Shown here: piece by piece, positions 23,918-49,751 of the stretch
Layout of the letters: every line of letters begins with the position of its first letter
Numbering within the stretch: the first letter of the stretch is position 1
Source of the DNA: Adhaeribacter soli
Lineage (GTDB): Bacteria > Bacteroidota > Bacteroidia > Cytophagales > Hymenobacteraceae
NCBI RefSeq assembly: GCF_008727925.1
Contig: NZ_VTWT01000011.1
Coordinates: 1 to 64,000 of the forward strand
DNA: 64,000 bases
Direction: 5' to 3'
The notes under the pieces: generated by a model
Told to the model about the DNA's origin: nothing
The model's database searches: none
Seen by the model: the letters and a program-made list of their open reading frames with translations, nothing else
Made by a program: the position numbers and the translations under genes

Positions 23918-24406
23918 ATGATAATCGGAATCGGGATCATGCTTTTAACTTTCGGCCTGATGGAAGTAAAAGCCTGGCTAATGCATAAGTACGTTTTACA
24001 CGGGTTTCTCTGGAAACTCCACCGGTCGCACCATACGCCGAAAAAAAGTTTCTTCGAGTGGAACGACCTTTTTTTTGCGTACTACGGTTTGCTGGCCATG
24101 CTTTGCTTTATTTACGGTTCCGAAAACATGGATTTCCGGTTCTGGATCGGGGCCGGCATCAGCTTGTACGGGTTTCTGTATTTTGTGGTGCACGACCTGT
24201 ATATTCATCGCCGGCTGAAGATCTTCGGAAAAGCTGACAACGTTTATTTACGCGCGCTGGACATCGCCCATAGAGTGCATCATAAAACCCGCGGCCGCGA
24301 CGGCTCTGAATCGTTCGGTATGCTGTGGGTACATCCTAAATTCATTCGTTTAGCAAAAAAGACAGCGTCTCAACGCAACGTAGCCGGTGGCACACTACTC
24401 AATTAA
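23918..24406 (+). CDS. crtZ: Beta-carotene hydroxylase
   Basis: The 162-residue membrane protein has the CrtZ length and the full histidine set of the di-iron hydroxylases: HKYVLH (H23, H28), HRSHH (H35, H38, H39), HDLYIHRR and HRVHH. It would add hydroxyl groups to the beta-ionone rings (positions 3 and 3'). It is the first gene of the ketocarotenoid cluster, and the MerR regulator starts inside its last 20 bases at a GTG, so the two are translationally coupled. Direction and context with crtI, crtB, crtY and crtW make the assignment strong. Confidence 0.88.
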   Translation: MIIGIGIMLLTFGLMEVKAWLMHKYVLHGFLWKLHRSHHTPKKSFFEWNDLFFAYYGLLAMLCFIYGSENMDFRFWIGAGISLYGFLYFVVHDLYIHRRLKIFGKADNVYLRALDIAHRVHHKTRGRDGSESFGMLWVHPKFIRLAKKTASQRNVAGGTLLN

Positions 24407-25271
24407 AGAACTCGAGCACCTTTCGGGCATTAAAGCCCATACCATCCGCATCTGGGAACAGCGTTACGGGCTTTTGGCGCCACAACGCACCGGTACCAAC
24501 ATTCGCTTCTATACCGATGCCGACCTGAAAATGCTCCTTAACGTTTCGCTGCTGAACGAAAAAGGCTACAAAATTTCCCGGATTGCCAAAATGTCGGCTA
24601 CTCAGGTGGCGGACGAAATTCTGGCCCTGGCCACAGCAACCGAAAGCGACAAGCACCTGCAAATTAACGCGCTGCTGGTGGCCATGATCGAACTGAATGA
24701 AGAAAAGTTCGACAAGGCTTTGACCACGCCCATGCTGCAGCTCGGCTTCGAGAAAACCATGCTGGAAATTGTTTATCCCTTCCTGAACCGGATCGGGATC
24801 CTTTGGCAAACGAACAATATCTGTCCGGCGCACGAGCATTTTGTCAGCAACCTGATCCGCCAGAAACTGATCGTGGCCATAGACGGGCAGGTGCAGGGCA
24901 GCCGGCAGGCCGCCGATGGGTTTCTGCTGTTTCTGCCGGAAGGCGAACTCCACGAACTGGCTTTGCTTTTTATGAGCTACCTGCTTCGGGTCCGCAAACG
25001 CCATACGCTTTACCTGGGGCAGTGCCTGCCGCACACCGATCTTATTGCCGCGCAAAAACAGTATCAGGCTCCTTACCTGGTTACGGCCATTACTTCCTCT
25101 CCGGAGCGCGATCAGGTACAAACCTACCTTAATACCCTTTCCCAGGATTTTCCCGAAGCCACTATTCTGGTTTATGGCGCACAGGTGCAGCACGGTTTTT
25201 TAGAAATGCCGGCCAATATAAAGCGCTTTAACCTTGTTACTGATTTTATTTCCACTATAGCGCAATTGTAG
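24387..25271 (+). CDS. MerR-family regulator with CarH-like cobalamin-binding domain
   Basis: The 294-residue protein has an N-terminal MerR winged helix (about 4-70, SIKELEHLSGIKAHTIRIWEQRYG), a helical bundle (about 90-165) and a C-terminal Rossmann-like domain (about 177-290). The helical bundle carries W-x9-EH (W140, E150, H151) and the C-domain ExHxx (E187, H189), the positions used by CarH/LitR photoreceptors to hold adenosylcobalamin; the last Gly of ExHxxG is Ala here. By family it would repress carotenoid genes in the dark and let go in light. GTG start at 24387 overlaps crtZ. B12 binding is inferred from motifs, not shown. Confidence 0.75.
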   Translation: MAHYSIKELEHLSGIKAHTIRIWEQRYGLLAPQRTGTNIRFYTDADLKMLLNVSLLNEKGYKISRIAKMSATQVADEILALATATESDKHLQINALLVAMIELNEEKFDKALTTPMLQLGFEKTMLEIVYPFLNRIGILWQTNNICPAHEHFVSNLIRQKLIVAIDGQVQGSRQAADGFLLFLPEGELHELALLFMSYLLRVRKRHTLYLGQCLPHTDLIAAQKQYQAPYLVTAITSSPERDQVQTYLNTLSQDFPEATILVYGAQVQHGFLEMPANIKRFNLVTDFISTIAQL

Positions 25272-25531
25272 CGGCTGCAGTTATCCCTTCTTTTTTCTAC
25301 CGTTTTGTTTTAGCCCTTCCTTTCTTTAATTGGTTGGCGCTTTGCTAATATGTTAAAATCTGTATCCAACCTTCACCTTTGGATTCCTGGCGTTTGCGGA
25401 TAAATCCAACCTAATCCCGGTAATATTCATTGGAGGCGTGATCTGTTCCTTCCGGTTTTCCGTTAGTTCAATTATTCCGCGAGTTTCCCGGTTTAAAATC
25501 AGCCTATGCCAGGTATAGGTTTGGGAAATTA

Positions 25532-25563
25532 TTGTTTAATAAAAATTGAAAAATATTAAACAA
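25532..25563. promoter_or_regulatory. 32-nt inverted-repeat element upstream of the sigma factor gene
   Basis: TTGTTTAATA (25532-25541) and TATTAAACAA (25554-25563) are perfect 10-bp inverted repeats spanning 32 nt, 57-88 nt before the sigma factor ATG. The same TTGTTTAA...ACAA ends at the same 32-nt span occur before crtI and ispH. It may be the binding site of the MerR regulator encoded just upstream. The rest of the 348-bp gap has no gene; TACTATTG at 25591-25598 is a near -7 element. Confidence 0.5.
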
Positions 25564-25619
25564 AAATTCGCGTCGGATAAAAATAAGTTGTACTATTGTT
25601 CCACCGAGTATTTAAACCT

Positions 25620-26141
25620 ATGAACGCCGTGACTTCCGTAGAATTTACCAACCAGGTTCAGAAAATCTCAGTATCCCTCCGTCCTGCCGCTTTAACCCTG
25701 ACCCGCGATGCCGACGACGCGCGCGATCTGGTGCAGGAAACCCTGTTAAAGGCGCTGTTGAATAAAGATAAATTTAAGGCCGGTACCAACCTGAAAGCTT
25801 GGCTTTACACGATCATGCGCAACACCTTTATTAACAATTACAACAAGGTTACCAAACGCAGCACCAAGATCGATAGCGCCGAATATTTCCAGTATTTCAA
25901 CTCCGATGAGACATTTATCACTTACAATGGCGGCACGGCCACGTTTGTAATGGCCGATATTTCGCAGGCAATTGACGGGTTGAACGAAGATTTCCGAACG
26001 CCTTTTATGATGTATTACATCGGGTATAAATACCTGGAAATTGCCGAAACGCTGCAGATCCCGATCGGTACGGTTAAGAACCGGATCCATATTGCCCGCA
26101 AAGAGTTGAAGAAGCTGCTGCAGGTTTACAGCTACAATTAA
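25620..26141 (+). CDS. ECF-type RNA polymerase sigma factor
   Basis: The 173-residue protein has region 2 (DADDARDLVQETLLKALLN, KAWLYTIMRNTFINNYNK) and region 4 (YLEIAETLQIPIGTVKNRIHIARKEL) of ECF sigma factors. No anti-sigma gene is adjacent. It sits between the CarH-like regulator and crtI, the position of the light-responsive sigma factor in other pigment clusters, so it probably drives crtI and following genes. The start is taken as ATG at 25620; a TTG eight codons upstream is also in frame. Region 2.4 details for promoter recognition cannot be judged. Confidence 0.88.
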   Translation: MNAVTSVEFTNQVQKISVSLRPAALTLTRDADDARDLVQETLLKALLNKDKFKAGTNLKAWLYTIMRNTFINNYNKVTKRSTKIDSAEYFQYFNSDETFITYNGGTATFVMADISQAIDGLNEDFRTPFMMYYIGYKYLEIAETLQIPIGTVKNRIHIARKELKKLLQVYSYN

Positions 26142-26194
26142 TTTTTGCCAGGAGACAACGTAACAGCATTAATCACGTTAAAAGTTACCTGAAG

Positions 26195-26202
26195 TAAATT
26201 TG
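26195..26202 (+). promoter_or_regulatory. Promoter -7 element of crtI
   Basis: TAAATTTG matches TAnnTTTG and lies 38 nt before the crtI GTG start. The 32-nt inverted-repeat element (26207-26238) starts four bases downstream, so a protein bound there would cover the transcription start. Confidence 0.5.
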
Positions 26203-26206
26203 AATT

Positions 26207-26238
26207 TTGTTTAAGTATTTTGATAAATTATAAAACAA
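26207..26238. promoter_or_regulatory. 32-nt inverted-repeat element upstream of crtI
   Basis: TTGTTTAAG at 26207 and TATAAAACAA ending at 26238 form the second member of the 32-nt element. It matches the copy at 25532-25563 in its eight left-end bases and seven right-end bases and in total length. It ends two bases before the crtI start codon, a position suited to repression. Confidence 0.5.
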
Positions 26239-26239
26239 G

Positions 26240-27718
26240 GTGGCTGATAAGAAAAAGGTGATCGTTATCGGGGCAGGGTTCTCGGGAATTGCTGCCGCCA
26301 CCAGTCTGGCGCACGAAGGCTATTCGGTAACGGTGCTTGAAAAAAACGCTACTCCCGGTGGCCGCGCCCGTAGTTTTAGTCACCAGGGTTTTGTCTTCGA
26401 TATGGGGCCAAGCTGGTACTGGATGCCGGACGTTTTTGATAAGTACTTTGAAAAGTTCGGACGGCGCACATCTGAATATTACAAACTGGTCCGGCTCGAT
26501 CCGTCTTACACCGTGGTTTTCGGCCCGGACGATTTTATGGCTTTGCCGGCGGGCATTCCGGCTTTAAAAGAAAGCTTCGAAAAACTGGAACGCGGAAGCG
26601 GGGAGAAGCTGGAGGAATTTCTAAAGCAGGCGGCTTTTAAGTACCAGGTGGGTATGAACGAACTGGTGTACAAGCCGGGAAGGTCGGTTTCCGAATTTCT
26701 GGATACAAAGTTGCTGCTGGGCGTACTGAAGCTGGACGTTTTTCAATCGATCCGCAAGCACATCCGCAAATTTTTCCGCCACCCGAAGATCATCCAGATC
26801 ATGGAATTTCCGGTGCTTTTCCTAGGTGCCCTGCCAGAGAACACCCCCGCGCTTTACAGCCTGATGAACTACGCCGACATGACCCTGGGAACCTGGTACC
26901 CGATGGGTGGCATGTTTAAAATTGTGGAGGGAATGGTATGCCTGGCCGAAGAAAATGGCGTGGAATTCCGCTATAACCAGACGGTGAAAGAAATTGTGCT
27001 GGAAAAGGGTAGGGCGAAAGGCATAAAAACCGAAAACGGCTATTTCGAAGCCGATGTAATAGTAGCCGGCGCCGATTACCACCACGTAGAAAGCAGTTTG
27101 TTGCCCGGAATTTCGCAAAGCTACACACCAGATTACTGGAACAAGCGCGTAATGGCGCCTTCTTCGCTTATCTTTTATTTGGGCGTTAACAAGCGGCTCA
27201 AAAACTTAACCCACCACAACCTTTTCTTCGACGAAGACTTTGGCAAGCACGCCCGGGAAATTTACGAAGATCCGAAGTGGCCCGACAAGCCGCTTTTCTA
27301 CGTTTCGGTTCCCTCTAAAACCGATCGCAGAGTAGCGCCGGAAAACTGTGAAAACCTGTTCGTACTGATTCCGGTGGCGCCAGGTTTGGTCGATACCGGA
27401 ACCATTCGGGAAAAGTATTACAACCTGGTAATGGAGCGACTGGAAAAACTGACCGGGCAAAGCATCCGGGAGCACGTGGTTTACAAACGGAGCTATGCCC
27501 ACGCCAATTTTATAGAAGATTATAATGCGTTTAAAGGCAACGCGTACGGACTGGCCAATACTTTACGGCAAACGGCCATTCTGAAACCAAGCCTGAAAAG
27601 CAGAAAAGTTAAGAACCTGTTTTATACCGGGCAGCTTACCGTGCCGGGCCCAGGGGTGCCGCCTTCGCTCATTTCCGGGCAGGTGGTAGCCGCCGAGGTG
27701 CATAAAGAATACAGTTAA
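26240..27718 (+). CDS. crtI: Phytoene desaturase
   Basis: The 492-residue FAD enzyme turns phytoene into lycopene by successive desaturations. The N-terminal dinucleotide fold VIVIGAGFSGIAAATSL with EKNATPGGRARSF, and the C-terminal NLFYTGQLTVPGPGVPPSLISGQ block, are typical of CrtI. Length is normal. The start codon is GTG at 26240. crtB follows 76 bp downstream. Distinction from related CrtI-type enzymes such as CrtD or CrtN relies on context with crtB and the lycopene cyclase. Confidence 0.92.
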   Translation: MADKKKVIVIGAGFSGIAAATSLAHEGYSVTVLEKNATPGGRARSFSHQGFVFDMGPSWYWMPDVFDKYFEKFGRRTSEYYKLVRLDPSYTVVFGPDDFMALPAGIPALKESFEKLERGSGEKLEEFLKQAAFKYQVGMNELVYKPGRSVSEFLDTKLLLGVLKLDVFQSIRKHIRKFFRHPKIIQIMEFPVLFLGALPENTPALYSLMNYADMTLGTWYPMGGMFKIVEGMVCLAEENGVEFRYNQTVKEIVLEKGRAKGIKTENGYFEADVIVAGADYHHVESSLLPGISQSYTPDYWNKRVMAPSSLIFYLGVNKRLKNLTHHNLFFDEDFGKHAREIYEDPKWPDKPLFYVSVPSKTDRRVAPENCENLFVLIPVAPGLVDTGTIREKYYNLVMERLEKLTGQSIREHVVYKRSYAHANFIEDYNAFKGNAYGLANTLRQTAILKPSLKSRKVKNLFYTGQLTVPGPGVPPSLISGQVVAAEVHKEYS

Positions 27719-27794
27719 TTTAAAAACAGCAGTGCAGGAGGAAGGAAGAGAGGGAAAAGGAAAATTCAGAATTACGTTTTAAATAAAGTAGCCG

Positions 27795-28628
27795 ATGGAG
27801 CTTTTTAACCGGACCAGCCTGGAATGCAGCAAACTGATAACCGAACGGTACAGCACTTCTTTTACGCTGGGTATTAAAACGCTTGATAAAAAACTTCACT
27901 TTCCGATCTATGCCATTTATGGGTTTGTGCGTTTTGCCGACGAGATTGTAGACACTTTCCACGACCACGACCGCGAAAAACTTTTCGAAGATTTCTGTAA
28001 AAGTACCTGGCAGGCTATTGAGGATGGGATCAGCCTGAACCCGGTGCTGCATGCTTTTCAGCTGGTGGTGCGCGAGTACGGCATAGAGCATGGGTATATA
28101 AGAGCCTTCCTGAACAGCATGGAAATGGACCTGAAACAACTGCAATTCCACCGGAACCTTTACGACGAATACATTTACGGCTCGGCCGAAGTGGTGGGTT
28201 TAATGTGCCTGCAGGTGTTTTGCCAGGGCGATACGCAACAATTCGACAAATTAAAAGATGCAGCCCGAAGCCTGGGTGCAGCTTTTCAGAAAGTAAACTT
28301 CCTCCGGGATATTAAGAGCGATTACTACGAACGCGGCCGGGTGTATTTCCCGAAGGTAGATTTTAAATGCTTCGATAATTGCGCCAAGGCGGAAATAGAG
28401 GCCGATATTGAACAGGATTTCCGGAACGCTTATGCCGGAATTGTGGACTTACCGCGGTCGGCCCGCATGGGCGTTTACCTAGCGTATGTGTATTACCTGA
28501 AGCTGTTCCGGAAAATTCAGGCCTTGTCGGCTACCCGCATTGTAAAAGAACGGGTCCGGGTGCCGGATAATACCAAGCTTGCTTTGCTGCTGGGTTCTTA
28601 CGTAAAATACCGGCTGAACACGATCTAG
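27795..28628 (+). CDS. crtB: Phytoene synthase
   Basis: The 277-residue enzyme condenses two geranylgeranyl diphosphates to phytoene. The two Asp-rich motifs are present: ADEIVD (D49 to D53) and NFLRDIKSDYYERGRVYFP, which hold the magnesium-diphosphate groups. The protein is close to the usual family length. It follows crtI in the same direction. The geranylgeranyl diphosphate synthase gene is not in the window. Confidence 0.92.
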   Translation: MELFNRTSLECSKLITERYSTSFTLGIKTLDKKLHFPIYAIYGFVRFADEIVDTFHDHDREKLFEDFCKSTWQAIEDGISLNPVLHAFQLVVREYGIEHGYIRAFLNSMEMDLKQLQFHRNLYDEYIYGSAEVVGLMCLQVFCQGDTQQFDKLKDAARSLGAAFQKVNFLRDIKSDYYERGRVYFPKVDFKCFDNCAKAEIEADIEQDFRNAYAGIVDLPRSARMGVYLAYVYYLKLFRKIQALSATRIVKERVRVPDNTKLALLLGSYVKYRLNTI

Positions 28629-28720
28629 GGCGTAAGCAGGTTTTTTTTAAGATTTTGCTATCGTTTTGCGGGAGCTTAGAACGAAACATATATACTAAAA
28701 GCTATTTTATTATTGTGTTT

Positions 28721-28826
28721 GTCATGTTGAGCGATAGCGAAACAACTCATCGGCGTAAAGCAATGTTGTTATTGCTAGCGTTTCTGCTGAAAGCCGACAA
28801 GGTCCTTCACTTACGTTCAGGATGAC
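28721..28826. repeat. Snapback repeat element A, diverged copy
   Basis: The left arm starts GTCATGTTGAGCGATAGCGAA and the right arm ends CAAGGTCCTTCACTTACGTTC-AGGATGAC, recognisable versions of the 9839-9930 element with many changes. It lies in the 487-bp gap between crtB and the next gene; the remainder of that gap shows nothing clear. Confidence 0.55.
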
Positions 28827-29115
28827 AGTTGTATTTATGAGATAGCCTAGAGTTAGATAGCTTGGAGTTGGTTTTAAAATGGCATTTAAATAATATAAAT
28901 TAAAAGGAATTTCAGTGCAAAAAAACGGGAGCAGCGAACGATAAGAAAAGACAGCGTAAAAATTAGGGAAAGTGTTAAAATGCTGGGTTTAAGTTCAAAA
29001 AACTGCAAGTAAGGCATATACCCAAATGCAACCAATGCGTAAAAATAACGGTTATCAGGTTAAAGGCCGGCTACCTTTTTAGTCCTGTTTTTTGTTTTTT
29101 TTAACTGTTGGTATT

Positions 29116-29640
29116 ATGGGAATGTTAACTATTTACGCGTTTCTGATTTGTGGTTTTCTATTCGGCACGGCCGAAGTTTACCGGGTTTCTGAATTAAGGC
29201 AGTTTTACCACCAGGCTACCAAAGAAGCGGCCGCCGGCGAAGCATTCTATAAGCACATGGCCCAATATGATGGAAGAGAGCCGGTAATTTTAGGGTTTAA
29301 AGCTGCCTCGGAAGCGGTAATGGCCAAGTACGCCTGGAGCCCGTACGCCAAATTGAAACACCTGAAAAATTCGGCAGCCATTTTTGACCAGGCCGTAAAG
29401 CTCGATCCGGACAATGCTGAGATCCGTTTTTTGCGTTACACCGTGGAGTATTACGTGCCGCGTTACCTGAACCTGAGCAACAACGTTGAAGAAGACCGCC
29501 GTATAATTCTGAACAGTTTATTCAAGTATCCGAAGTCGGGACTGGATGCGGAACCGGGAAAGATCATGCGTGATTTTCTGCTCACCGCCGACCATTGCAG
29601 CGACCAGGAAAAGCAACAGCTTCGAACCATAAAAATCTGA
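29116..29640 (+). CDS. Unknown protein coupled to lycopene cyclase
   Basis: The 174-residue protein has a hydrophobic N-terminus (MLTIYAFLICGFLFG) that could be a signal peptide or anchor, followed by a helical region with a TPR-like segment (SAAIFDQAVKLDPDNAEIRFLRYTVEYYVP). No catalytic motif is seen. Its stop codon overlaps the crtY start by one base (TGATG), so the two are translated together. Unnamed proteins of this type accompany lycopene cyclase in other Bacteroidota as far as I recall. The start is 29116 or 29122; the frame is also open from a TTG at 29092. Confidence 0.7.
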   Translation: MGMLTIYAFLICGFLFGTAEVYRVSELRQFYHQATKEAAAGEAFYKHMAQYDGREPVILGFKAASEAVMAKYAWSPYAKLKHLKNSAAIFDQAVKLDPDNAEIRFLRYTVEYYVPRYLNLSNNVEEDRRIILNSLFKYPKSGLDAEPGKIMRDFLLTADHCSDQEKQQLRTIKI

Positions 29641-30332
29641 TGTACATTTACCTCTGGCTTAACGTATTTACCATCTTTTTCCCCTTCGTTCTTTCCTTCG
29701 ATAAGCGGGTGGCTTTCTATAAAACCTGGCCTGCTTTATTTCCGGCGCTTGTTGTAAACGCCCTCATCTTTATTCCCTGGGATATTTATTTTACCCAACG
29801 CGGCATCTGGGGCTTCAATCCGGAATACCTGGTGGGCATTTATATTTTTGGTTTACCCCTCGAAGAGATCCTCTTTTTTATTACCGTTCCCTACGCCTGC
29901 GTTTTTATTTACCAGTGCCTGAATGTTTATTTCGGCGAAAGCATTTTTCAGCGGCACGCCCGCACGTTTACCTTCCTGCTGATCCCGCTTCTGCTTTTAC
30001 TGGCGGTGTTTAATTTGCCCCGGCTTTATACCTCGGCCACGGCGGTTTTCCTGGTGCTCATGTGGTTTGTGCACCTGAAAGTAATTGGCAACGAATTGCT
30101 GGGCAAGTTTTACCGGGCCTACCTGGTGCACCTGATCCCGTTTCTGCTGGTGAATGGAATCTTAACGGCCATCCCGATTGTTTGGTACAATAATGACTTC
30201 AACCTGGGGCACCGCATTTATACCATTCCGGTGGAAGATGCCTGGTACTCGATGCTGCTGTTGCTATTGCCGGTTACGGCTTTCGAATTTTTTCTGAGCC
30301 GGCGAAAACAAATTGCAACTCAGGTTGTTTAA
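29640..30332 (+). CDS. crtY: Lycopene beta-cyclase, fused CrtYcd type
   Basis: The 230-residue membrane protein contains two lycopene-cyclase (CarR/CrtYc and CrtYd) domains in one chain, each of about three membrane segments. The first has PLEEILFFITVPY and the second IPVEDAWYSMLLLL, the paired acidic motifs needed for cyclisation. It turns lycopene into beta-carotene. ATG at 29640 overlaps the previous stop. Its own stop lies inside the 32-nt element in front of ispH. It is unrelated to FAD-type CrtY/CrtL enzymes. Confidence 0.87.
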   Translation: MYIYLWLNVFTIFFPFVLSFDKRVAFYKTWPALFPALVVNALIFIPWDIYFTQRGIWGFNPEYLVGIYIFGLPLEEILFFITVPYACVFIYQCLNVYFGESIFQRHARTFTFLLIPLLLLLAVFNLPRLYTSATAVFLVLMWFVHLKVIGNELLGKFYRAYLVHLIPFLLVNGILTAIPIVWYNNDFNLGHRIYTIPVEDAWYSMLLLLLPVTAFEFFLSRRKQIATQVV

Positions 30333-30356
30333 GAATTAATAATAACTATTACACAA
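30325..30356. promoter_or_regulatory. 32-nt element upstream of ispH
   Basis: TTGTTTAAG at 30325 and ACACAA ending at 30356 span 32 nt as in the copies before the sigma factor and crtI; the right arm has one mismatch (ACACAA for AAACAA). It includes the crtY stop codon and ends two bases before the ispH ATG. Confidence 0.4.
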
Positions 30357-30358
30357 AA

Positions 30359-31204
30359 ATGTTAAACCTGCACGTACAGATCGATTCCGGCTCCGGCTTT
30401 TGCTTCGGGGTGATCTATGCCATTCAAATGGCGGAAGATATACTGGCGGAACAGGACCACTTGTATTGCCTCGGCGACATTGTGCACAACGACGAAGAAG
30501 TAGCCCGCTTGGTTCAGAAGGGCTTGCGCATTATCGGGTACGAGGAACTGGAAAAGCTTCAGGATGAAACGGTGCTGATCCGGGCGCACGGCGAACCGCC
30601 TTCCACCTATAAAATGGCTCTCGAAAATAACCTGAACCTGGTAGATGCCTCTTGTCCGGTGGTACTGAAACTGCAGAACCGTATTAAAGGCTCTTTCGAC
30701 AAAGGCGACAACATTTTTATTTACGGCAAGCACGGTCACGCCGAAGTGCGGGGCTTGCTCGGGCAAACCAGTAACCAGGCGGTGGTCTTCGAAACGATGG
30801 ATGAACTTTTGCAGCACGAACTTCCGGCTAACCTTACCCTTTACAGCCAGACCACCAAAAGCACCGATAGTTTCTATCGCATAAAAAACACCCTCGAAGA
30901 AAAAGGCATTGCCGTAGACGCCAACGATACCATTTGCCGCCAGGTATCGAACCGCGATAAAGAGTTGCGCAAGTTTGCCCGGCAGTTCGATAAGATCGTT
31001 TTCGTTTCCGGCACCAAATCTTCCAACGGCAAGGTGTTGTATAATGTGTGCAAAGACACCAATCCGGACACCTGGTTTATTTCCAAACCGGAAGAGTTGC
31101 AGCCGGAATGGTTTGCCTCCGGCGAAAGGGTAGGTATTTGCGGGGCAACTTCTACGCCCATGTGGCTCATGGAAAACGTCCGGAATATTTTACTTTCGTA
31201 TTAA
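30359..31204 (+). CDS. ispH: 4-hydroxy-3-methylbut-2-enyl diphosphate reductase
   Basis: The 281-residue iron-sulfur enzyme makes IPP and DMAPP in the last step of the MEP pathway, supplying precursors for the carotenoids. Cluster-binding cysteines are in FCFGV, ASCPVV and GICGATSTP, with the conserved RAHGEPP and GKHGHAEVRG motifs. Some positions differ from the common form (SGFCFGV), but the fold and cysteines are intact. Placement between crtY and crtW suggests the pathway is boosted together with pigment synthesis. Confidence 0.9.
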   Translation: MLNLHVQIDSGSGFCFGVIYAIQMAEDILAEQDHLYCLGDIVHNDEEVARLVQKGLRIIGYEELEKLQDETVLIRAHGEPPSTYKMALENNLNLVDASCPVVLKLQNRIKGSFDKGDNIFIYGKHGHAEVRGLLGQTSNQAVVFETMDELLQHELPANLTLYSQTTKSTDSFYRIKNTLEEKGIAVDANDTICRQVSNRDKELRKFARQFDKIVFVSGTKSSNGKVLYNVCKDTNPDTWFISKPEELQPEWFASGERVGICGATSTPMWLMENVRNILLSY

Positions 31205-32596: not shown

Positions 32597-32689
32597 GTCA
32601 TCCTGAGCGCCAGCGAAGGACCTCGTCGGAATTAAATAGGATGCACTCTACCGGGAGCCGACGAGGTCCTTCGCTGTGCTCAGGATGAC
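32597..32689. repeat. Snapback repeat element A, copy 2
   Basis: Arms 32597-32629 and 32658-32689 match the 9839-9930 element and pair with each other with small differences. It lies in the 472-bp gap between crtW and the TonB receptor gene. Confidence 0.8.
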
Positions 32690-32818
32690 GCAATAAAACG
32701 GTTAGGCCTGACGGCTATAGAGTGCAGACCAGGTAAATACCGGGCATGAACCTCGTCGGTTAAACCCTATTCTCAAAAATCGTATTTAGAGGAATTTAAG
32801 CACATCATTTACTGAAAA

Positions 32819-32848
32819 TGTTTTACATTTACGGTGAAATGTTAAACA
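32819..32848. promoter_or_regulatory. Palindrome upstream of the TonB receptor gene
   Basis: TGTTTTACATTT (32819-32830) and AAATGTTAAACA (32837-32848) are 12-bp inverted repeats with one mismatch and a six-base spacer, ending 51 nt before the GTG start. It resembles a dimeric regulator site. The outer ends are loosely similar to the 32-nt carotenoid element, but the left end differs. Confidence 0.45.
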
Positions 32849-32899
32849 AAAAAGCCTGAATCCTGTTTAAGGTGCAGGTTGTCTTAATTCCTGTTTCGC

Positions 32900-35299
32900 G
32901 TGAGCATTACTTTTTTCTTCCGGAAAGCTACTGTTTTTCTTTTCCTGTTGTTTTTACTGCCCTTTTCGGTACTGGCCCAGAGCGGGGTGGTGCGCGGCCG
33001 GATCCTGAATGCGCTTACCAACGAGCCGGTGGCATTTGCCGTGATTGGATTACAGGGCACCAGCTTTGCCACTACGGCAAATGAGAACGGCTTTTACGAA
33101 ATCACCAAAGTGCAGCCGGGCGTTTATAATATGGAGGTCAGTTTTGTGGGCTTCCGGAAGAAAGTGGTGCCGGAAGTGGCAGTTCAAAATTCGCGGCCTA
33201 CCCAGCTGGATATAACCCTGGAAGAAGAAGCCCAGAACCTGGAGGCGGTGGAAGTGGTGGCCTCGCCGTTCGTAAAAACGCCCGAAAGCCCGGTTTCTTT
33301 GCGTTCCCTAGGCATTGCTGAAATTCAGCGGAATCCGGGGGGGAACCGCGATGTTTCGAAAGTGCTGCAATCGTTGCCGGGCGTGGCTACTTCTACCTCT
33401 TTCCGGAACGACCTGATTATCCGGGGCGGCTCGCCGAACGAGAACCGTTTTTACCTCGACGGCATTGAGGTTCCCAACATCAACCACTTTGCCACGCAAG
33501 GCGCTTCCGGCGGACCGGTTGGCCTTATCAATCCGAATTTTGTGCGCAACGTGGATCTGTATTCCGGGGCCTTTCCGGCCAGCCGGGGCAATGCACTTAG
33601 TTCGGTACTGGAATTTAAGCTGAAGGAAGGCCGCGAAGATAAACTGGGATACACGATTCTGGCCGGTTCTACCGATGTGGGACTGACCGTTGACGGGCCG
33701 TTGTCGGAGAAATCGAGCTTTATTTTTTCGGTAAGGCGCTCTTATCTGCAGTTTTTATTTAAGGCGCTCGACCTTTCTTTTCTGCCTACCTACAACGATT
33801 TTCAATTCAAGAATACCATCCGGCTGAACAGCAAAAACCGCATTACCCTGATTGGCCTCGGCGCGCTCGACGATTTTAAACTGAACCTGCAGGCCAACGA
33901 AACTGAATATCAGAAATACCTTTTAGCTTCCCTGCCGGTCAATACGCAATGGAATTACACGGCTGGCGCCAAATACGAGCACTTCAGCAACCGCAGCAAC
34001 CAGACCTTTGTTGTAAGCCGTAACCACCTGAACAACGAGGCCATTAAGTACCGCGATAATGATGAAAGCCTGGCGGAAAACCTGGTGCTGGATTACCGTT
34101 CAGAAGAAATTGAAAATAAATTCCGGTTCGAAAATTATACCACCCAAAAAGGCTGGAGCACCACCGCCGGCCTGAACTACGAATTTGCCACCTACCGCAA
34201 CCGGACCTTCAACAAACTATCTACGCCTGCCGGCCTGCAAACGGTAGATTACAAAACCGACCTGAACATCCATAAATTCGGCGCTTTCGCCCAGTTGAGC
34301 AAAACGTTCTTGAACGATAAACTTTCGCTTTCCGGTGGTTTACGGACCGATTTTAATTCGTATTCGGCGGCCATGCAAAACCCTTTGGAGCAACTTTCGC
34401 CCCGGTTTTCGGTGGCCTACCAGTTTCTGCCTCGCTGGAGCCTGAACCTGAATACCGGGCGTTATTACCAGTTACCGCCTTATACTGTGCTGGGTTTCCG
34501 AAACGCAGAGGGCGACCTGGAGAATAAGCAGAACGGCGTGCAATACATTGCCGTGGAACATTTGGTGGCCGGTCTGGAATACAATACGCTGCAAAACGGC
34601 AAAATAACGGTGGAAGGTTTTTACAAGAATTACAGCCGTTATCCATTCCTGCTCCGCGACTCGGTTTCGCTGGCAAATCTGGGCGGCGATTTTGGGGTAG
34701 TGGGCAATGCACCGGTAAAATCGGTTTCGGAGGGCCGGGCCTACGGCGTGGAAACGCTGGTGCAGCAGAAACTCCTGAAAGGTTATTACGGGATTCTGGC
34801 TTATACATTTGTGCGAAGCGAGTTTAAGGACCGGAACGATAACTACGTGCCTTCTTCCTGGGACAGCCGCCATATTGTAAGTTTAACCGGCGGCAAACAG
34901 TTGCCGAAGAATTGGGAAACCGGTTTTAAATTCCGCTTCACTACCGGTTCGCCGTACACCCCCTTCGATCTGGAAAGAAGCGCCCAACGGGCCGTTTTTG
35001 ATGTAACCGGCCGCGGGCTGCCCGATTACCGCCTGCTTAATTCCCTACGAAAAGGCACTTTCTACCAGCTTGATTTCCGGATCGATAAAAAGTACTTCTT
35101 CGAGAAATGGAGCCTGAATTTTTACCTCGACGTGGAGAACATCCTGAATACCCAAACGGAGGATCAACCGGTATTTGTGGTGCTCCGGGATGATGCCGGA
35201 AGACCGATACCGGCGGATGCAGCTACGTACCAGTACAAGTTGCTGGAGAATACTTCCGGAACCCGCCTGCCTAGCATTGGGGTGCAGATCGATTTTTAG
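32900..35299 (+). CDS. TonB-dependent outer membrane receptor
   Basis: The 799-residue protein begins with a signal peptide (cleavage near VLAQSG), then a carboxypeptidase-regulatory-like domain (about 28-110), a plug domain (about 115-230, with LPGVATS and DLIIRGGSPNENRFYLDG) and a 22-strand-type barrel to the C-terminal Phe. It would import a nutrient or siderophore using the proton motive force. No SusD partner follows, so polysaccharide import is unlikely; iron is a guess. The start is GTG at 32900. Confidence 0.9.
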   Translation: MSITFFFRKATVFLFLLFLLPFSVLAQSGVVRGRILNALTNEPVAFAVIGLQGTSFATTANENGFYEITKVQPGVYNMEVSFVGFRKKVVPEVAVQNSRPTQLDITLEEEAQNLEAVEVVASPFVKTPESPVSLRSLGIAEIQRNPGGNRDVSKVLQSLPGVATSTSFRNDLIIRGGSPNENRFYLDGIEVPNINHFATQGASGGPVGLINPNFVRNVDLYSGAFPASRGNALSSVLEFKLKEGREDKLGYTILAGSTDVGLTVDGPLSEKSSFIFSVRRSYLQFLFKALDLSFLPTYNDFQFKNTIRLNSKNRITLIGLGALDDFKLNLQANETEYQKYLLASLPVNTQWNYTAGAKYEHFSNRSNQTFVVSRNHLNNEAIKYRDNDESLAENLVLDYRSEEIENKFRFENYTTQKGWSTTAGLNYEFATYRNRTFNKLSTPAGLQTVDYKTDLNIHKFGAFAQLSKTFLNDKLSLSGGLRTDFNSYSAAMQNPLEQLSPRFSVAYQFLPRWSLNLNTGRYYQLPPYTVLGFRNAEGDLENKQNGVQYIAVEHLVAGLEYNTLQNGKITVEGFYKNYSRYPFLLRDSVSLANLGGDFGVVGNAPVKSVSEGRAYGVETLVQQKLLKGYYGILAYTFVRSEFKDRNDNYVPSSWDSRHIVSLTGGKQLPKNWETGFKFRFTTGSPYTPFDLERSAQRAVFDVTGRGLPDYRLLNSLRKGTFYQLDFRIDKKYFFEKWSLNFYLDVENILNTQTEDQPVFVVLRDDAGRPIPADAATYQYKLLENTSGTRLPSIGVQIDF

Positions 35300-45942: not shown

Positions 45943-46024
45943 CTGTCATCCTGAGCTCAATTGAGCGCGGGAGCGCGAAGATTGCGAGCGTAGCTCTGAA
46001 GGACCTTGTCGGCTCCCGGCAGAA
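45943..46024. repeat. Fragment combining repeat families A and B
   Basis: It begins CTGTCATCCTGAGCT, contains GAGCGCGGGAGCGCGAAGATTGCGAGCGTAGCTCTGA of family B, and ends GAAGGACCTTGTCGGC of family A. It lies just past the end of the truncated DUF4142 gene. Confidence 0.6.
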
Positions 46025-46064
46025 AGCCAACCCGGAGCCATTATTAAACATTAACTATTAATCA

Positions 46065-46475
46065 TTAAACAAGTTCGTGGGCTTTTATCTGGCCATCCAT
46101 GTAGCGCTTATCGAATTTTTCGCCGATGTTCAGTTCGGTCATGGGTTCCATCAGGCGCTGGTGCACCGGGAGCATGGTGGTGGGCAGGGTGATGTTCTTC
46201 TGGGCAGCCAGGCTTTTTAATTCCTCGGAGTAACTGCCGTGTTCGCTGAGCATCAGTTTGGCAAAGATCCGGACAGCCGGGTTGATGCCGCGCGCCTGGG
46301 CCAGTTCGCTGCTACGGGTCTCGAACAGATCGGAGCTGGCGGCCATTTCCGGGAAGCTGTAGGTTTCCGTAGCCTGGGTGGTTACCGCCCCGGAATCGGT
46401 TTTGGTGGAGCTGCAGGCGCCTAAACTAAAGGTCAGCATACCGGCGGCTAAAAAGGGGAGTAGGGCTATTTTCAT
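46065..46475 (-). CDS. DUF4142 lipoprotein, 3'-truncated
   Basis: The 136-residue protein has a lipoprotein signal (FSLGACSS) and the start of a DUF4142 domain (EMAASSDLFETRSSELAQARG, KLMLSEHGSYSEELKSLAAQKN, FDKRYMDGQIKAHELV). The domain normally goes on for 40 or more residues after this last block (with a repeated His-containing helix); here it stops at an AT-rich repeat with TTAATGATTAATAG. The gene is therefore likely broken by repeat insertion, though the shortened product may still be made. ATG at 46475 is chosen. Confidence 0.7.
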   Translation of the reverse strand: MKIALLPFLAAGMLTFSLGACSSTKTDSGAVTTQATETYSFPEMAASSDLFETRSSELAQARGINPAVRIFAKLMLSEHGSYSEELKSLAAQKNITLPTTMLPVHQRLMEPMTELNIGEKFDKRYMDGQIKAHELV

Positions 46476-46580
46476 GCTTCCTAGGTCACTGTGAGTTATC
46501 ACCCTTACGACACCGAGAGAGAGGATATTACTTTAAAAGTTTTTTAAATTTGTTTTAGATTTTTAGGAAAATATTAAATT

Positions 46581-46616
46581 AAAAAGGATACCAAGGGAAA
46601 ACTTAGTATCCTTTTT
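46581..46616 (-). terminator. Terminator of the phosphoesterase-STAND gene
   Basis: A ten-base stem (46586-46595 with 46602-46611, one mismatch) has A and T runs on either side, so it would work on both strands. It lies 24 bp past the stop codon on the minus strand. Confidence 0.75.
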
Positions 46617-46634: not shown

Positions 46635-49600
46635 TTAGCTATTCTTTTTCTTTTCTACCATTTTCTTCTTATCAAGTTTATTAAAGATTTGACTTACTTG
46701 ATTTTTTGAATACAATGAACTATTAAAACTCTTGGCGACCTCTGAATACAAGTTTTGTAATGTCTTCTCTGTTGCCTTTTGTATTTGAGGATGAATTTCA
46801 GAGATCCTAAAATGATAATAATATAAAATTTTAATCATGATTGAATGCTTCAGAATAGGAATTTTTAAAACCTGTACACTCTTTTCAATATACCTAATAT
46901 TGCTACTTAAGTCAATATCACAGAGCATATAGAATAAGAGAAATAGTTTAAATTGAGAATCCTTTTCATCTGTGAGGGAAATAGATTCAATTTTTTTCTT
47001 AATCACAGATTGCATATTTACAGCCCCAATCATATCAGATAATCTGCTCTGAACAATTACTGGTAGTAATTGTTTCATTAGGTTTGCTAACATTGTGATA
47101 TGGTCATTATTATTATCTGGGTTGTTTGTTTCTTTTCTCATTGATTCAAAAAGCTTAAAACCCCACATCACAGTCGTGTCTAACAAATAATTGAAGATAT
47201 TATTAATTAAATTCCCATTTTTAATATCATCTGCATTTTTAAAAACCCGACCTAAAATATATAAAGCTCGTTCTAATGAAGCGACATCCTCCTCATCAAT
47301 AGGAATTAATTTTTTAACCCTTACTTCACAATGACGATCCCTATCCGCAATTCCATTTTCTAAAATTGGGTCTTCAAAATCATCTATTTCATCTTGGGAA
47401 AGACGCTCATTAATTACCTCCATTTCCTTTTTACCCAAATGAAGAGCGATATCATCTGTAGCAATGGACTTTAACAAAGAGTCCATATTTAGTCCTCCAT
47501 TCACTGAATATTCAAAGTGAATGTTATTAAAAATGCGTTGTGTTTTATTAAAAATCCTTTCAACAAAATCCTCATCGCTTCTATTAGAACCAGCATACAT
47601 TTCTAATTCATTTTTAAAACTAAGATAAACATCGTTATCATCTATGACGTTATTTCTAAATTCCGAGTTAAGTTTCAAATAATGAGCTAGAAAATATTCG
47701 AATATCCCATTTAACCTAAAAGAATACATTCCAGGATAAACCTCCTTAACGATCCCTTTATTTTCTACATAGGACCAAACTGTATTGGCATTAGTATGGT
47801 TTCTAGGATTTTCTTTTAGATATTCTTCTGTGAAAGCATAGATTTCAGGGATACTAGCTGAGTAAGAAGTATCTTGTTTTTTAAGGAAGAATCTAGCTAA
47901 GTGAGCCAAATACTGTTTGTACTTATCATATGAAAACTCTCCTTTACTTCTTAATAAGTTTTCTCGTTCAAGGATGGATTCCATATATAAGTCAACAAGA
48001 TCGACATCGTTATTAATGTCTCTATTACTTTCTTTAAAGACCCACATAAATAAAGACACATTCCAGAAATTAAATGGAATTGCAAGCATATTGAATATAT
48101 GGTTTATTCTAGTAATAACCTCTGTTTTACTATTTGAATTGCCATAAAATTTTTCTGCAATTTCCCGTATTTGTTTCTTTTTAAGACTATGGAAAAAAAT
48201 ATTAATCATTTTTTTATCCCCAATAGAAACATCTCGGTATTTTGTTAAAGAGTTTTGATTACAACATATTATTATTTGAGATTTATGGAAACATTTAATA
48301 ATTTCTTCTAACCACTTTCTCTCCTGTTCATTAGTTAAATCTAGATTATCGATTAGCACTAAGGTTTTTTGAGTTTCCATTATACTAGTTGCCCCAGCTC
48401 TGCTGGTGGCAAAATAGGTGGCAACTTCTTTTTGCGTTCTAGATTTTACATCCCCACCTTTTTCTGCTTTTGCACTATTAATATAAAAAGGTATTACTCC
48501 AAGGATAGGGAATTTACTTAAACATTGTAGTTGTAAGTATTTGAGCAAAGAGGTTTTGCCAGATTTATCTTCCCCCATTATTAAAAAGTCTGATCCTGAA
48601 TTTACAAAGTCATCACAATTAAAAATAGGAACAGAGTTTTCTTTCTTTACTTCTTCAGGGCTTTTTGAGCTTATAACTGGTGTCGTCCAAAGGTCAAGAA
48701 AACCTTTAGCATCTTTATTTACTTTTCCATTTAAGAATAAATCATTGGCTTCTTCTAATTCTAGATCATGTAACTCTCTAAGTCGTTGTCTAAACTTATT
48801 CTGTTCCTGCTTTTCCTTACTTACTGGTATTTGAACCTCAATTAAATTCCCGTCATAAAAATATTCGCCTTCATTATTGAACTTAAATGTTTTCCCTTTC
48901 ACAAAATAGGTTTCATTATCCACATTAATAACTGTGTAACCTATTGTAGAACCATCTGTTCCAGCAAGTGAAGCAGCTGATTGAAGCTTTAAAATTCCAT
49001 CAGTATGTGTTAAAAAGACCGAAGCAGTATCCTTATGTAAATGACCGGAAAAGGCAATGTTAAAATTATTGTGAATTACATCTTCCAATGCATATTCATT
49101 ATATAATTTAAAATTAGAGAGTGGATGATGATGTAATATTATTTTGATTTGAGCATCCTTTAAATGGTGTAAACCTTCATTGATAAATTTTAATGGTAAA
49201 ACTAAGTTACCTTCATCATTATGACCTACAGCTCTCCAAGCTGTATTTGCACAATATATCCCTATAGTTTTATTTTCTATAGTTCTTAAATGACACGAGT
49301 AGCCATTTTTATAAATATCCTTTGAGTTTGATTTAAGTTCCTCCGTAAATGTGTAATAGTTGTTTAGTGGAAGCAAGCTATTTGAATAATCTATTCCGGG
49401 GTCTTTTGTAAACTTATCTAGCTCAATATTATCCTTTATTGTATCAATAAATCTGATAGTTGCCATACTTCGCTTTGACCTATCGACATCATGATTACCA
49501 GGACATATAAAGAAATTCTCTAATGGAATATCTAAATCTTTAAGTAAAGGATCAATAAGTAATTCCTTTGCTTTTCTAAAAGACTCTATTTTATCACCAG

Positions 49601-49751
49601 AATAAACTAAGTCCCCTGTAAAGAAAATTAAATCCGGTTTTTCGGATTGGAATTTTATGTGTTCAATCATTTTATTGACCACCTTAGTCTGTCTGTGTAA
49701 ATCCTGTTCTTGATTACTAAAATGGAAATCTGTTAAGTGTAAAATTTTCAT
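46635..49751 (-). CDS. Metallophosphoesterase-STAND NTPase fusion, putative defence protein
   Basis: The 1038-residue protein has an N-terminal calcineurin-like phosphoesterase (1-300) with all five motifs: TDFH (D8, H10), GDLVYSGD, GNHD (85-88), HHHP (207-210) and GHLH (236-239). A linker (about 310-380) leads to a P-loop NTPase with Walker A GEDKSGKT (393-400), Walker B LVLIDNLD, sensor-like IIICCNQN (494-500), a winged-helix segment ending FRLNGIFEYFLAHYL (678-692), and about 340 helical residues with no known repeat. This plan (effector, switch, sensor) is that of STAND immune proteins; the phosphoesterase would be the toxic effector. The gene is strongly AT-rich and stands alone between a broken DUF4142 gene and hrpB. 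Function is inferred. Confidence 0.8.
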   Translation of the reverse strand: MKILHLTDFHFSNQEQDLHRQTKVVNKMIEHIKFQSEKPDLIFFTGDLVYSGDKIESFRKAKELLIDPLLKDLDIPLENFFICPGNHDVDRSKRSMATIRFIDTIKDNIELDKFTKDPGIDYSNSLLPLNNYYTFTEELKSNSKDIYKNGYSCHLRTIENKTIGIYCANTAWRAVGHNDEGNLVLPLKFINEGLHHLKDAQIKIILHHHPLSNFKLYNEYALEDVIHNNFNIAFSGHLHKDTASVFLTHTDGILKLQSAASLAGTDGSTIGYTVINVDNETYFVKGKTFKFNNEGEYFYDGNLIEVQIPVSKEKQEQNKFRQRLRELHDLELEEANDLFLNGKVNKDAKGFLDLWTTPVISSKSPEEVKKENSVPIFNCDDFVNSGSDFLIMGEDKSGKTSLLKYLQLQCLSKFPILGVIPFYINSAKAEKGGDVKSRTQKEVATYFATSRAGATSIMETQKTLVLIDNLDLTNEQERKWLEEIIKCFHKSQIIICCNQNSLTKYRDVSIGDKKMINIFFHSLKKKQIREIAEKFYGNSNSKTEVITRINHIFNMLAIPFNFWNVSLFMWVFKESNRDINNDVDLVDLYMESILERENLLRSKGEFSYDKYKQYLAHLARFFLKKQDTSYSASIPEIYAFTEEYLKENPRNHTNANTVWSYVENKGIVKEVYPGMYSFRLNGIFEYFLAHYLKLNSEFRNNVIDDNDVYLSFKNELEMYAGSNRSDEDFVERIFNKTQRIFNNIHFEYSVNGGLNMDSLLKSIATDDIALHLGKKEMEVINERLSQDEIDDFEDPILENGIADRDRHCEVRVKKLIPIDEEDVASLERALYILGRVFKNADDIKNGNLINNIFNYLLDTTVMWGFKLFESMRKETNNPDNNNDHITMLANLMKQLLPVIVQSRLSDMIGAVNMQSVIKKKIESISLTDEKDSQFKLFLLFYMLCDIDLSSNIRYIEKSVQVLKIPILKHSIMIKILYYYHFRISEIHPQIQKATEKTLQNLYSEVAKSFNSSLYSKNQVSQIFNKLDKKKMVEKKKNS

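Follow-up and report, generated by a model that had tools for sequence, protein, structure and literature searches.

Palindromic elements in the carotenoid cluster of Adhaeribacter soli

Three palindromic elements of 32 bp were found in the carotenoid (crt) gene cluster of Adhaeribacter soli, a member of the Bacteroidota, and they are very probably operators of the predicted vitamin B12-dependent photoreceptor of the CarH/LitR type that is encoded next to them. The cluster lies in a stretch of 64,000 nucleotides (assembly GCF_008727925.1, contig NZ_VTWT01000011.1, positions 1 to 64,000), which is referred to as the window and provides all coordinates given here. A first-pass annotation of the window had suggested that the elements may be the operators of the CarH-like MerR protein. 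This suggestion is supported by the conservation of the site in the sigma factor promoter of relatives, by an excess of the palindrome in genomes that carry CarH, by arms that contain the motif TnnACA, and by sites directly upstream of carH or crtI in three loci that gave no match to this sigma factor gene.

All three elements were recovered as previously described, at 25532-25563, 26207-26238 and 30325-30356, each spanning 32 nt and located ahead of the genes for a sigma factor, CrtI and IspH, respectively. The element upstream of the sigma factor gene (O1) is a perfect palindrome, and it ends 56 bases from the ATG at 25620. One mismatch each was found in the predicted operator ahead of crtI and in the operator candidate ahead of ispH, so the earlier description of a mismatch in one element only has to be corrected. 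As had been noted, both of these elements reach to within two bases of a start codon, the former stopping one base short of the crtI GTG (26240) and the latter two bases short of the ispH ATG (30359). The gene for lycopene cyclase terminates within the ispH element, its stop codon being part of the left arm.

Within the window, the loose pattern TTGTTTAA-N20-ACAA has three locations, of which one, being palindromic, matches on both strands; 100 dinucleotide shuffles of the window averaged 0.03 matches and never exceeded 1. In the whole genome it was found at six places, the three described here and three elsewhere, and the reversed-pattern control gave 2 forward and 2 reverse matches. It was dropped in favour of the true palindrome because of these three places elsewhere. 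A genome-wide search, which had been proposed as a check, was therefore made with TTGTTTAA-N16-TTAAACAA. Allowing up to one mismatch, it returned exactly the three elements of the crt cluster and nothing else from the 4.97-Mb genome, with 0 matches for the reversed pattern. The palindrome became unspecific when up to three mismatches were allowed (106 places in the genome vs 82 in the control).

A matrix was built from 87 elements in the sigma factor promoters of 52 relatives, with the A. soli genome excluded, and was used with a threshold of 12, 16, 18 or 20 depending on the analysis. Controls were permuted matrices, in which the column order was changed and the composition kept. O1 ranked first in the window (29.4), followed by a site at 32818 (26.4), the crtI element (26.1), the ispH element (23.5) and two sites at 46041 (21.9) and 46550 (16.0). 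The peak score of 40 permuted matrices in the window was 18.5, which both the crtI and the ispH copies exceed. No score of at least 12 was obtained in the loci around the three off-window matches to the loose pattern. The second-ranked site (32818-32849), which was not listed in the first-pass annotation, is a likely fourth operator. It has two mismatches to the palindrome, its inner arms are nearly symmetric as well, and an open reading frame (ORF) for a TonB-dependent receptor begins 50 bp downstream.

Conservation of the site in relatives

The site is conserved at one position of the cluster, upstream of the sigma factor gene. It was detected there by the matrix in 51 of 52 relatives, these being the regions on which the matrix was trained, whereas permuted matrices gave a mean of 0.82 and a maximum of 6. 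A count of matching arm positions was made in 46 clusters with carH, sigma, crtI, crtB and ispH, that of A. soli included. At least 13 of 16 positions matched in the sigma factor region of 40 clusters with a spacer of 17 and of 24 clusters with a spacer of 16, compared with at most 5 clusters for any of nine other genes, each of which was represented in 21 to 46 clusters. Counts in the sigma factor region were also raised at spacers of 8 (18/46) and 9 (15/46). Upstream sites detected by the matrix were much rarer for the crtZ-like ORF (6/52), carH (4/72), crtI (3/51) and ispH (1/45), and there were none in the relatives for crtB, a small ORF, the ech ORF, the lycopene cyclase gene and the desaturase gene (crtZ and ech are our own working labels). 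The single recurrence ahead of ispH was found at the same place in Adhaeribacter terrigena, with a weaker score of 18.8. Absence from orthologous clusters, which had been named as a point that would speak against operators, is thus found at the crtI and ispH positions, which mostly lack a site, and not at the sigma factor position.

A wider set of 80 named loci, partly from the same species as the training set (L112 and L037 are one contig), contained 107 sites, compared with 0-3 for 20 permuted matrices. When the sigma factor gene is located downstream of carH, a site was present between the two genes in 46 of 57 loci, and in all 39 of those that also contain crtI. Sites upstream of carH itself were seen in 17 of the 80 loci. 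Three loci (L102, L107 and L108) have a site directly upstream of carH or crtI and no match to a homologue of the sigma factor gene of the window, which argues against the sigma factor as the binding protein. Some of the sites in relatives sit between divergent genes. Among the records that carry the palindrome, some are named Pontibacter, and others are titled Chitinophaga, Flavobacteriales, Bacteroidales or otherwise.

Half-sites and anatomy of the proposed operator

The right arm of the palindrome contains TAAACA and the left arm its reverse complement TGTTTA, giving one TnnACA per arm. This motif is the consensus half-site of CarH in the available text of PMC9304148. The best-conserved arm positions (2, 3, 4 and 7, each 0.96-0.97 in the 87 elements) are those of TnnACA. 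Divergent pairs of TnnACA were observed 44 times at 24 bp and 31 times at 25 bp in the 52 sigma factor upstream regions (0.1 each in shuffled sequences), and direct pairs 3 times at 11 bp (0.5 expected) and 5 times at 12 bp. With 3 direct pairs at 11 bp vs 75 divergent pairs, the half-site of a CarH operator is present and the tandem series of 11-bp direct repeats is absent. Judged from sequence, the recognition element is that known for CarH and its arrangement differs.

The arms are held at a sharply preferred distance, with 46 matches at a spacer of 16, 33 at 17 and no more than 7 at any other spacer from 8 to 26. Sites often occur in pairs. Among 71 neighbouring pairs, 52 are spaced by 62-64.5 bp, 5 by 52-53 bp, 6 by 42-45 bp and 8 otherwise, which is consistent with copies on one face of the helix. 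The start-proximal copy (O2) usually ends at or beside the start codon and is commoner than the copy far upstream (O1), with 50 vs 32 instances. A -7 box of the form TAnnTTTG is the consensus in Bacteroidota promoters. Of the 50 O2 copies, 45 begin with the TTG of a -7-like TAnnnTTG box, which reads TAnnTTTG in 30, whereas this was seen for none of the 32 O1 copies. An overlap with the promoter is suggested by these box positions in relatives; in A. soli, O2 is decayed. Here, a -7-like box TACTATTG (25591-25598) is present at the position of the TAnnnTTG conserved in relatives, and the decayed remnant of O2 extends with it over 25591..25619 on the forward strand (best remnant score 0.8). A second box, TAGGTTTG (25516-25523), lies just before O1, and a third, TAAATTTG (26195..26202, forward strand), lies ahead of the crtI operator and matches the -7 consensus.

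This arrangement was compared with known systems, based on the available parts of the articles cited. It resembles the CarH systems of Thermus thermophilus, Bacillus megaterium and myxobacteria in the B12-binding MerR photoreceptor, the TnnACA motif and the association with carotenoid genes (PMC8156234, PMC9304148). The operators of those systems overlap the promoter, and box positions in relatives suggest that the palindrome may do so as well. It differs in that the operators of Thermus, Bacillus and myxobacteria usually consist of three or four 11-bp direct repeats, whereas the half-sites here are divergent and 24 or 25 bp apart. LitR-LitS of Streptomyces coelicolor is similar in that a B12-dependent MerR photoreceptor controls a sigma factor gene, the product of which transcribes from a crt promoter; however, it belongs to another phylum, and LitR is described as promoting litS (PMC12705666). 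Two inverted repeats beside a carotenoid promoter of Myxococcus xanthus have been proposed as an operator of CarA, but their conservation is limited to Myxococcus species and C. coralloides (PMC9304148), whereas the palindrome described here recurs across Bacteroidota records.

The CarH-like regulator

The carH-like gene (24387..25271, forward strand) encodes a protein of 294 aa with a MerR DNA-binding domain and a B12-binding domain. The N-terminal winged-helix domain matched PF13411 (MerR_1) with 60.5 bits (cut-off 21.6) and the cobalamin-binding module matched PF02607 (B12-binding_2) with 32.8 bits (cut-off 23), while no Pfam model reached 1e-3 for the Rossmann half. The protein aligned with CarH of Thermus (5c8d) over residues 4-242 (phmmer E 7.4e-17). 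The W-x9-EH motif is kept, and W140, E150, H151, E187 and H189 are invariant in 15 aligned homologues; by alignment, H189 would be the lower-ligand histidine of cobalamin. A structure model with a mean predicted local distance difference test score of 88.2 had CarH structures as its best Foldseek matches (5c8d: E 1.7e-15, template modelling score 0.60, 22% identity). The nearest named relative found was A. terrigena, with 65% identity. Matches at E of 0.001 or below were obtained in 75 of 78 genomes, including that of A. soli; 72 of them were at E 1e-56 or better, and the other three were short.

Co-occurrence with CarH and candidate regulon

The palindrome was more frequent in genomes that encode CarH. 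In the same 78 genomes, it was found with up to one mismatch at 121 places vs 29 for the control, and the six of these genomes that lack a full-length CarH accounted for 5 places vs 2. A sample of the phylum comprised 296 genomes, in which full-length CarH was defined by E up to 1e-40; due to kinship, the genomes do not count as independent. The 58 genomes with full-length CarH contained 217 palindromes vs 44 in the control, and no excess was seen in 216 other genomes without it (48 vs 90). Within the class, the excess was larger in the presence of CarH, with means of 3.1 and 0.35 (Mann-Whitney p 3.7e-5, without regard to relatedness).

Genes for microbial rhodopsins, which are light-driven pumps, are candidates for a wider regulon. 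They were chosen across the class and irrespective of the site, by taking the 30 highest-scoring among 39 genomes that gave a match, and 16 of the 30 loci had an upstream site, compared with a mean of 0.17 and a maximum of 1 for the permuted control. CarH is present in all 30 of these genomes, so these loci offer no contrast without CarH. In the class, CarH was found in 35 of 35 genomes with a clear rhodopsin vs 81 of 159 without (198 genomes, four doubtful rhodopsin matches omitted; Fisher 1.3e-9, ignoring relatedness). Photolyase was rejected as a general regulon member, as only 1 of 30 loci taken from a search of 59 genomes had an upstream site.

Copies away from carotenoid genes, which the first-pass annotation had regarded as unfavourable if numerous, do not occur in the A. 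soli genome at one mismatch. Relatives do have other sites, many of them by genes for sigma factors, rhodopsins and lipoprotein-like proteins. A set of 40 such off-cluster loci was picked by hand from the listed places, mostly exact palindromes, and one flanking gene per locus was assigned, using Pfam for some members of each group except sigma and BLAST for the rest. The flanking genes were 10 sigma factor genes, 11 DUF4397-like genes, 3 rhodopsin genes, 3 genes of the 6-pyruvoyl tetrahydropterin synthase (PTPS) type, 2 fasciclin genes, 2 photolyase-like genes and 9 others; genes for TonB receptors and lipoprotein-like proteins are also among the neighbours. DUF4397-type proteins are candidate recurring members of the regulon.

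Some of these loci share a common layout. The eleven palindromes adjacent to DUF4397 genes (L192, L199, L204, L206, L207 and L209-L214, near position 4000; Pfam on two) come from nine genomes of the family to which A. soli belongs, and each has a methyltransferase-like gene on the other side (with a THUMP-like domain in the one tested). In three loci of the same order (L193, L223 and L226), the palindrome adjoins the PTPS-type gene (Pfam on two), and two of them have a crtI-like gene on the opposite side.

Proposed mechanism and alternative explanations

The anatomy, conservation and spacing of the site, its match to the CarH half-site and its co-occurrence with CarH were observed directly. 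From these we infer binding by CarH and a light response, as well as the sign of regulation, the transcription starts and the action of the sigma factor on the crt genes. Most likely, CarH loaded with adenosylcobalamin (AdoCbl) would hold the palindromes in the dark. On illumination, the Co-C bond of AdoCbl would be broken and CarH released, by which the sigma factor would be switched on and would in turn transcribe the crt genes. Dark repression is thus the sign of regulation that we favour, though with some reserve. At the sigma factor promoter, O2 would cover both the -7-like box and the expected start of transcription, and O1 would lie about 63 bp further upstream on about the same face of the helix, which suggests cooperative binding by a CarH oligomer. 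In A. soli, where O2 is decayed and O1 intact, the extra copies would put crtI, probably ispH and perhaps the TonB receptor under direct control.

Several observations weigh against CarH operators of this kind. Published CarH operators are tandem 11-bp repeats of the form nnnnTnnACAn, some of them partly conserved (PMC8156234, PMC9304148), and the available text of PMC9304148 suggests that CarA reads direct repeats and not the Myxococcus palindromes. The regulator scored 90.3 bits against the NCBIfam CarH equivalog NF052513, far below the curated cut-off of 400, and by this measure appears to be a distant relative of CarH and not an equivalog. The base composition of the palindrome is AT-rich, and counts of related genomes do not represent independent events. 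There is a slight excess in 17 genomes of the same class without full-length CarH (11 vs 5 in the control), and none in 5 genomes with a divergent CarH (7 vs 8). A site before sigma was found in 7 and absent in 11 of the 18 named loci that have the sigma factor gene but no crtI, and of the 17 loci inspected in the same order in which carH is isolated, away from sigma and crtI, 15 had no site scoring at least 18 near carH. The crtI and ispH copies are lineage-specific and unconserved outside the genus. Same-strand TnnACA pairs at 21 bp were seen 12 times in the 52 sigma factor upstream regions vs 0.5 expected, which is unexplained. Finally, as O2 is decayed in A. soli, control of the sigma factor gene must rest on O1, off the TACTATTG box, unless TAGGTTTG is the real promoter.

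The direct-repeat form of the published operators, the few sites in genomes of the class without CarH and the isolated carH genes without a site would also fit an operator of another dimeric regulator that co-occurs with CarH and light-response genes. We regard this as quite unlikely, since the four most conserved half-site positions match the CarH consensus, sites are present upstream of carH itself, the large excess over the control is found in CarH genomes, and CarH is encoded in all 30 genomes tested for rhodopsin loci. If CarH is the binding protein, it could instead activate the sigma factor gene in the light via O1, with O2 limiting basal transcription. LitR is described as promoting litS transcription in the light in Streptomyces (PMC12705666), the -7-like box lies beyond the downstream end of O1 and is absent from all 32 of its copies, and O1 is the only intact copy in A. 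soli. However, the commoner copy O2 overlaps the box, which is the position of a repressor, and the characterised CarH proteins are dark repressors (PMC8156234), making activation a possible but rather improbable alternative to dark repression.

It is similarly unlikely that the crtI copy, the ispH copy or both are chance AT-rich palindromes and that the sigma factor copy alone is functional. Both are absent at these positions in most relatives, and the end of the lycopene cyclase gene makes up part of the left arm of the ispH copy, but the palindrome with up to one mismatch is found nowhere else in the genome, both copies score above the permuted-matrix peak, and the ispH copy recurs in A. 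terrigena. The proximity of two of the three elements, and of most O2 copies, to a start codon could also suggest translational control by RNA hairpins in 5' leaders. This is very improbable given the position of O1 far upstream, the sites between divergent genes in relatives, the spacer fixed at 16-17 and the tandem copies placed about whole helical turns apart.

Gene cluster and further features of the window

The cluster contains a crtZ-like ORF, carH, the sigma factor gene, crtI, crtB, a small ORF, and genes for lycopene cyclase, IspH, a glyoxalase-family protein and a desaturase. The conserved target, an ECF (extracytoplasmic function)-type sigma factor gene (25620..26141), matched Pfam Sigma70_r2 and Sigma70_r4_2 and the NCBIfam sigma70-ECF superfamily above the cut-off. 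The crtI gene (26240..27718) belongs to the phytoene desaturase family (NCBIfam CrtID, 765.8 bits, cut-off 640), and ispH (30359..31204) encodes 4-hydroxy-3-methylbut-2-enyl diphosphate reductase (Pfam LYTB; NCBIfam equivalog above the cut-off). The desaturase matched CrtW below the cut-off, no family match was obtained for the small ORF, and neither Pfam nor NCBIfam gave a match for the crtZ-like ORF. The TonB-dependent receptor ORF behind the 32818 site (32900..35299, start codon uncertain) matched Pfam TonB_dep_Rec_b-barrel, CarbopepD_reg_2 and Plug. It was rejected as an orthologue of the receptor behind a perfect site in a congener, with which it shares 27% identity over 334 aa. The sigma factor gene, crtI, ispH and the receptor ORF are all on the forward strand.

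Two weaker palindromes (46041-46072 and 46550-46581) flank a gene for a DUF4142 protein (46065-46502, minus strand), and one of them overlaps the stop codon of that gene, comparable to the stop codon found within the ispH copy. Elsewhere in the A. soli genome (C8:318510; L109:9011-9043), a perfect palindrome of 33 bp with a spacer of 17 (score 26.9) is located about 105 bp before an ORF of 146 aa without a Pfam match; it adjoins an alpha/beta hydrolase gene, and further upstream there is a gene for a PAS histidine kinase. The window also encodes a protein of 1038 aa (46635-49751) that combines a calcineurin-like phosphoesterase domain with a match to nSTAND NTPases; we take this architecture to be reminiscent of defence proteins. 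Related inverted repeats resembling repetitive extragenic palindromic (REP) elements, with motifs such as gacgaggtcctt, were seen by eye in intergenic DNA at 28711-28830, 32600-32690 and 45945-46020.

Significance

Light control of pigments in Bacteroidota has so far been poorly explained. In a light-induced Chryseobacterium, no car or lit genes were found by its authors, according to the available text of the source (among PMC9478572, PMC7064467 and PMC11855829). The half-site TnnACA is known for CarH; its divergent inverted arrangement appears to be new, as it was not found among the matches listed in the open-access literature searched, a scope outside which most subscription papers fall. 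It would challenge the view that CarH proteins read tandem direct repeats only. We consider it fairly probable that CarH throughout the Bacteroidota uses a divergent inverted TnnACA repeat of 32 or 33 bp, often duplicated in helical phase, to run a light regulon that comprises the sigma factor/carotenoid cascade and many rhodopsins, DUF4397 and fasciclin proteins and pterin synthesis, and that would tie B12 status to rhodopsin phototrophy. A defined operator would allow the CarH regulon to be read from genomes, and with sites at 16 of the 30 loci tested, many rhodopsin genes are predicted to be under the control of B12 and light.

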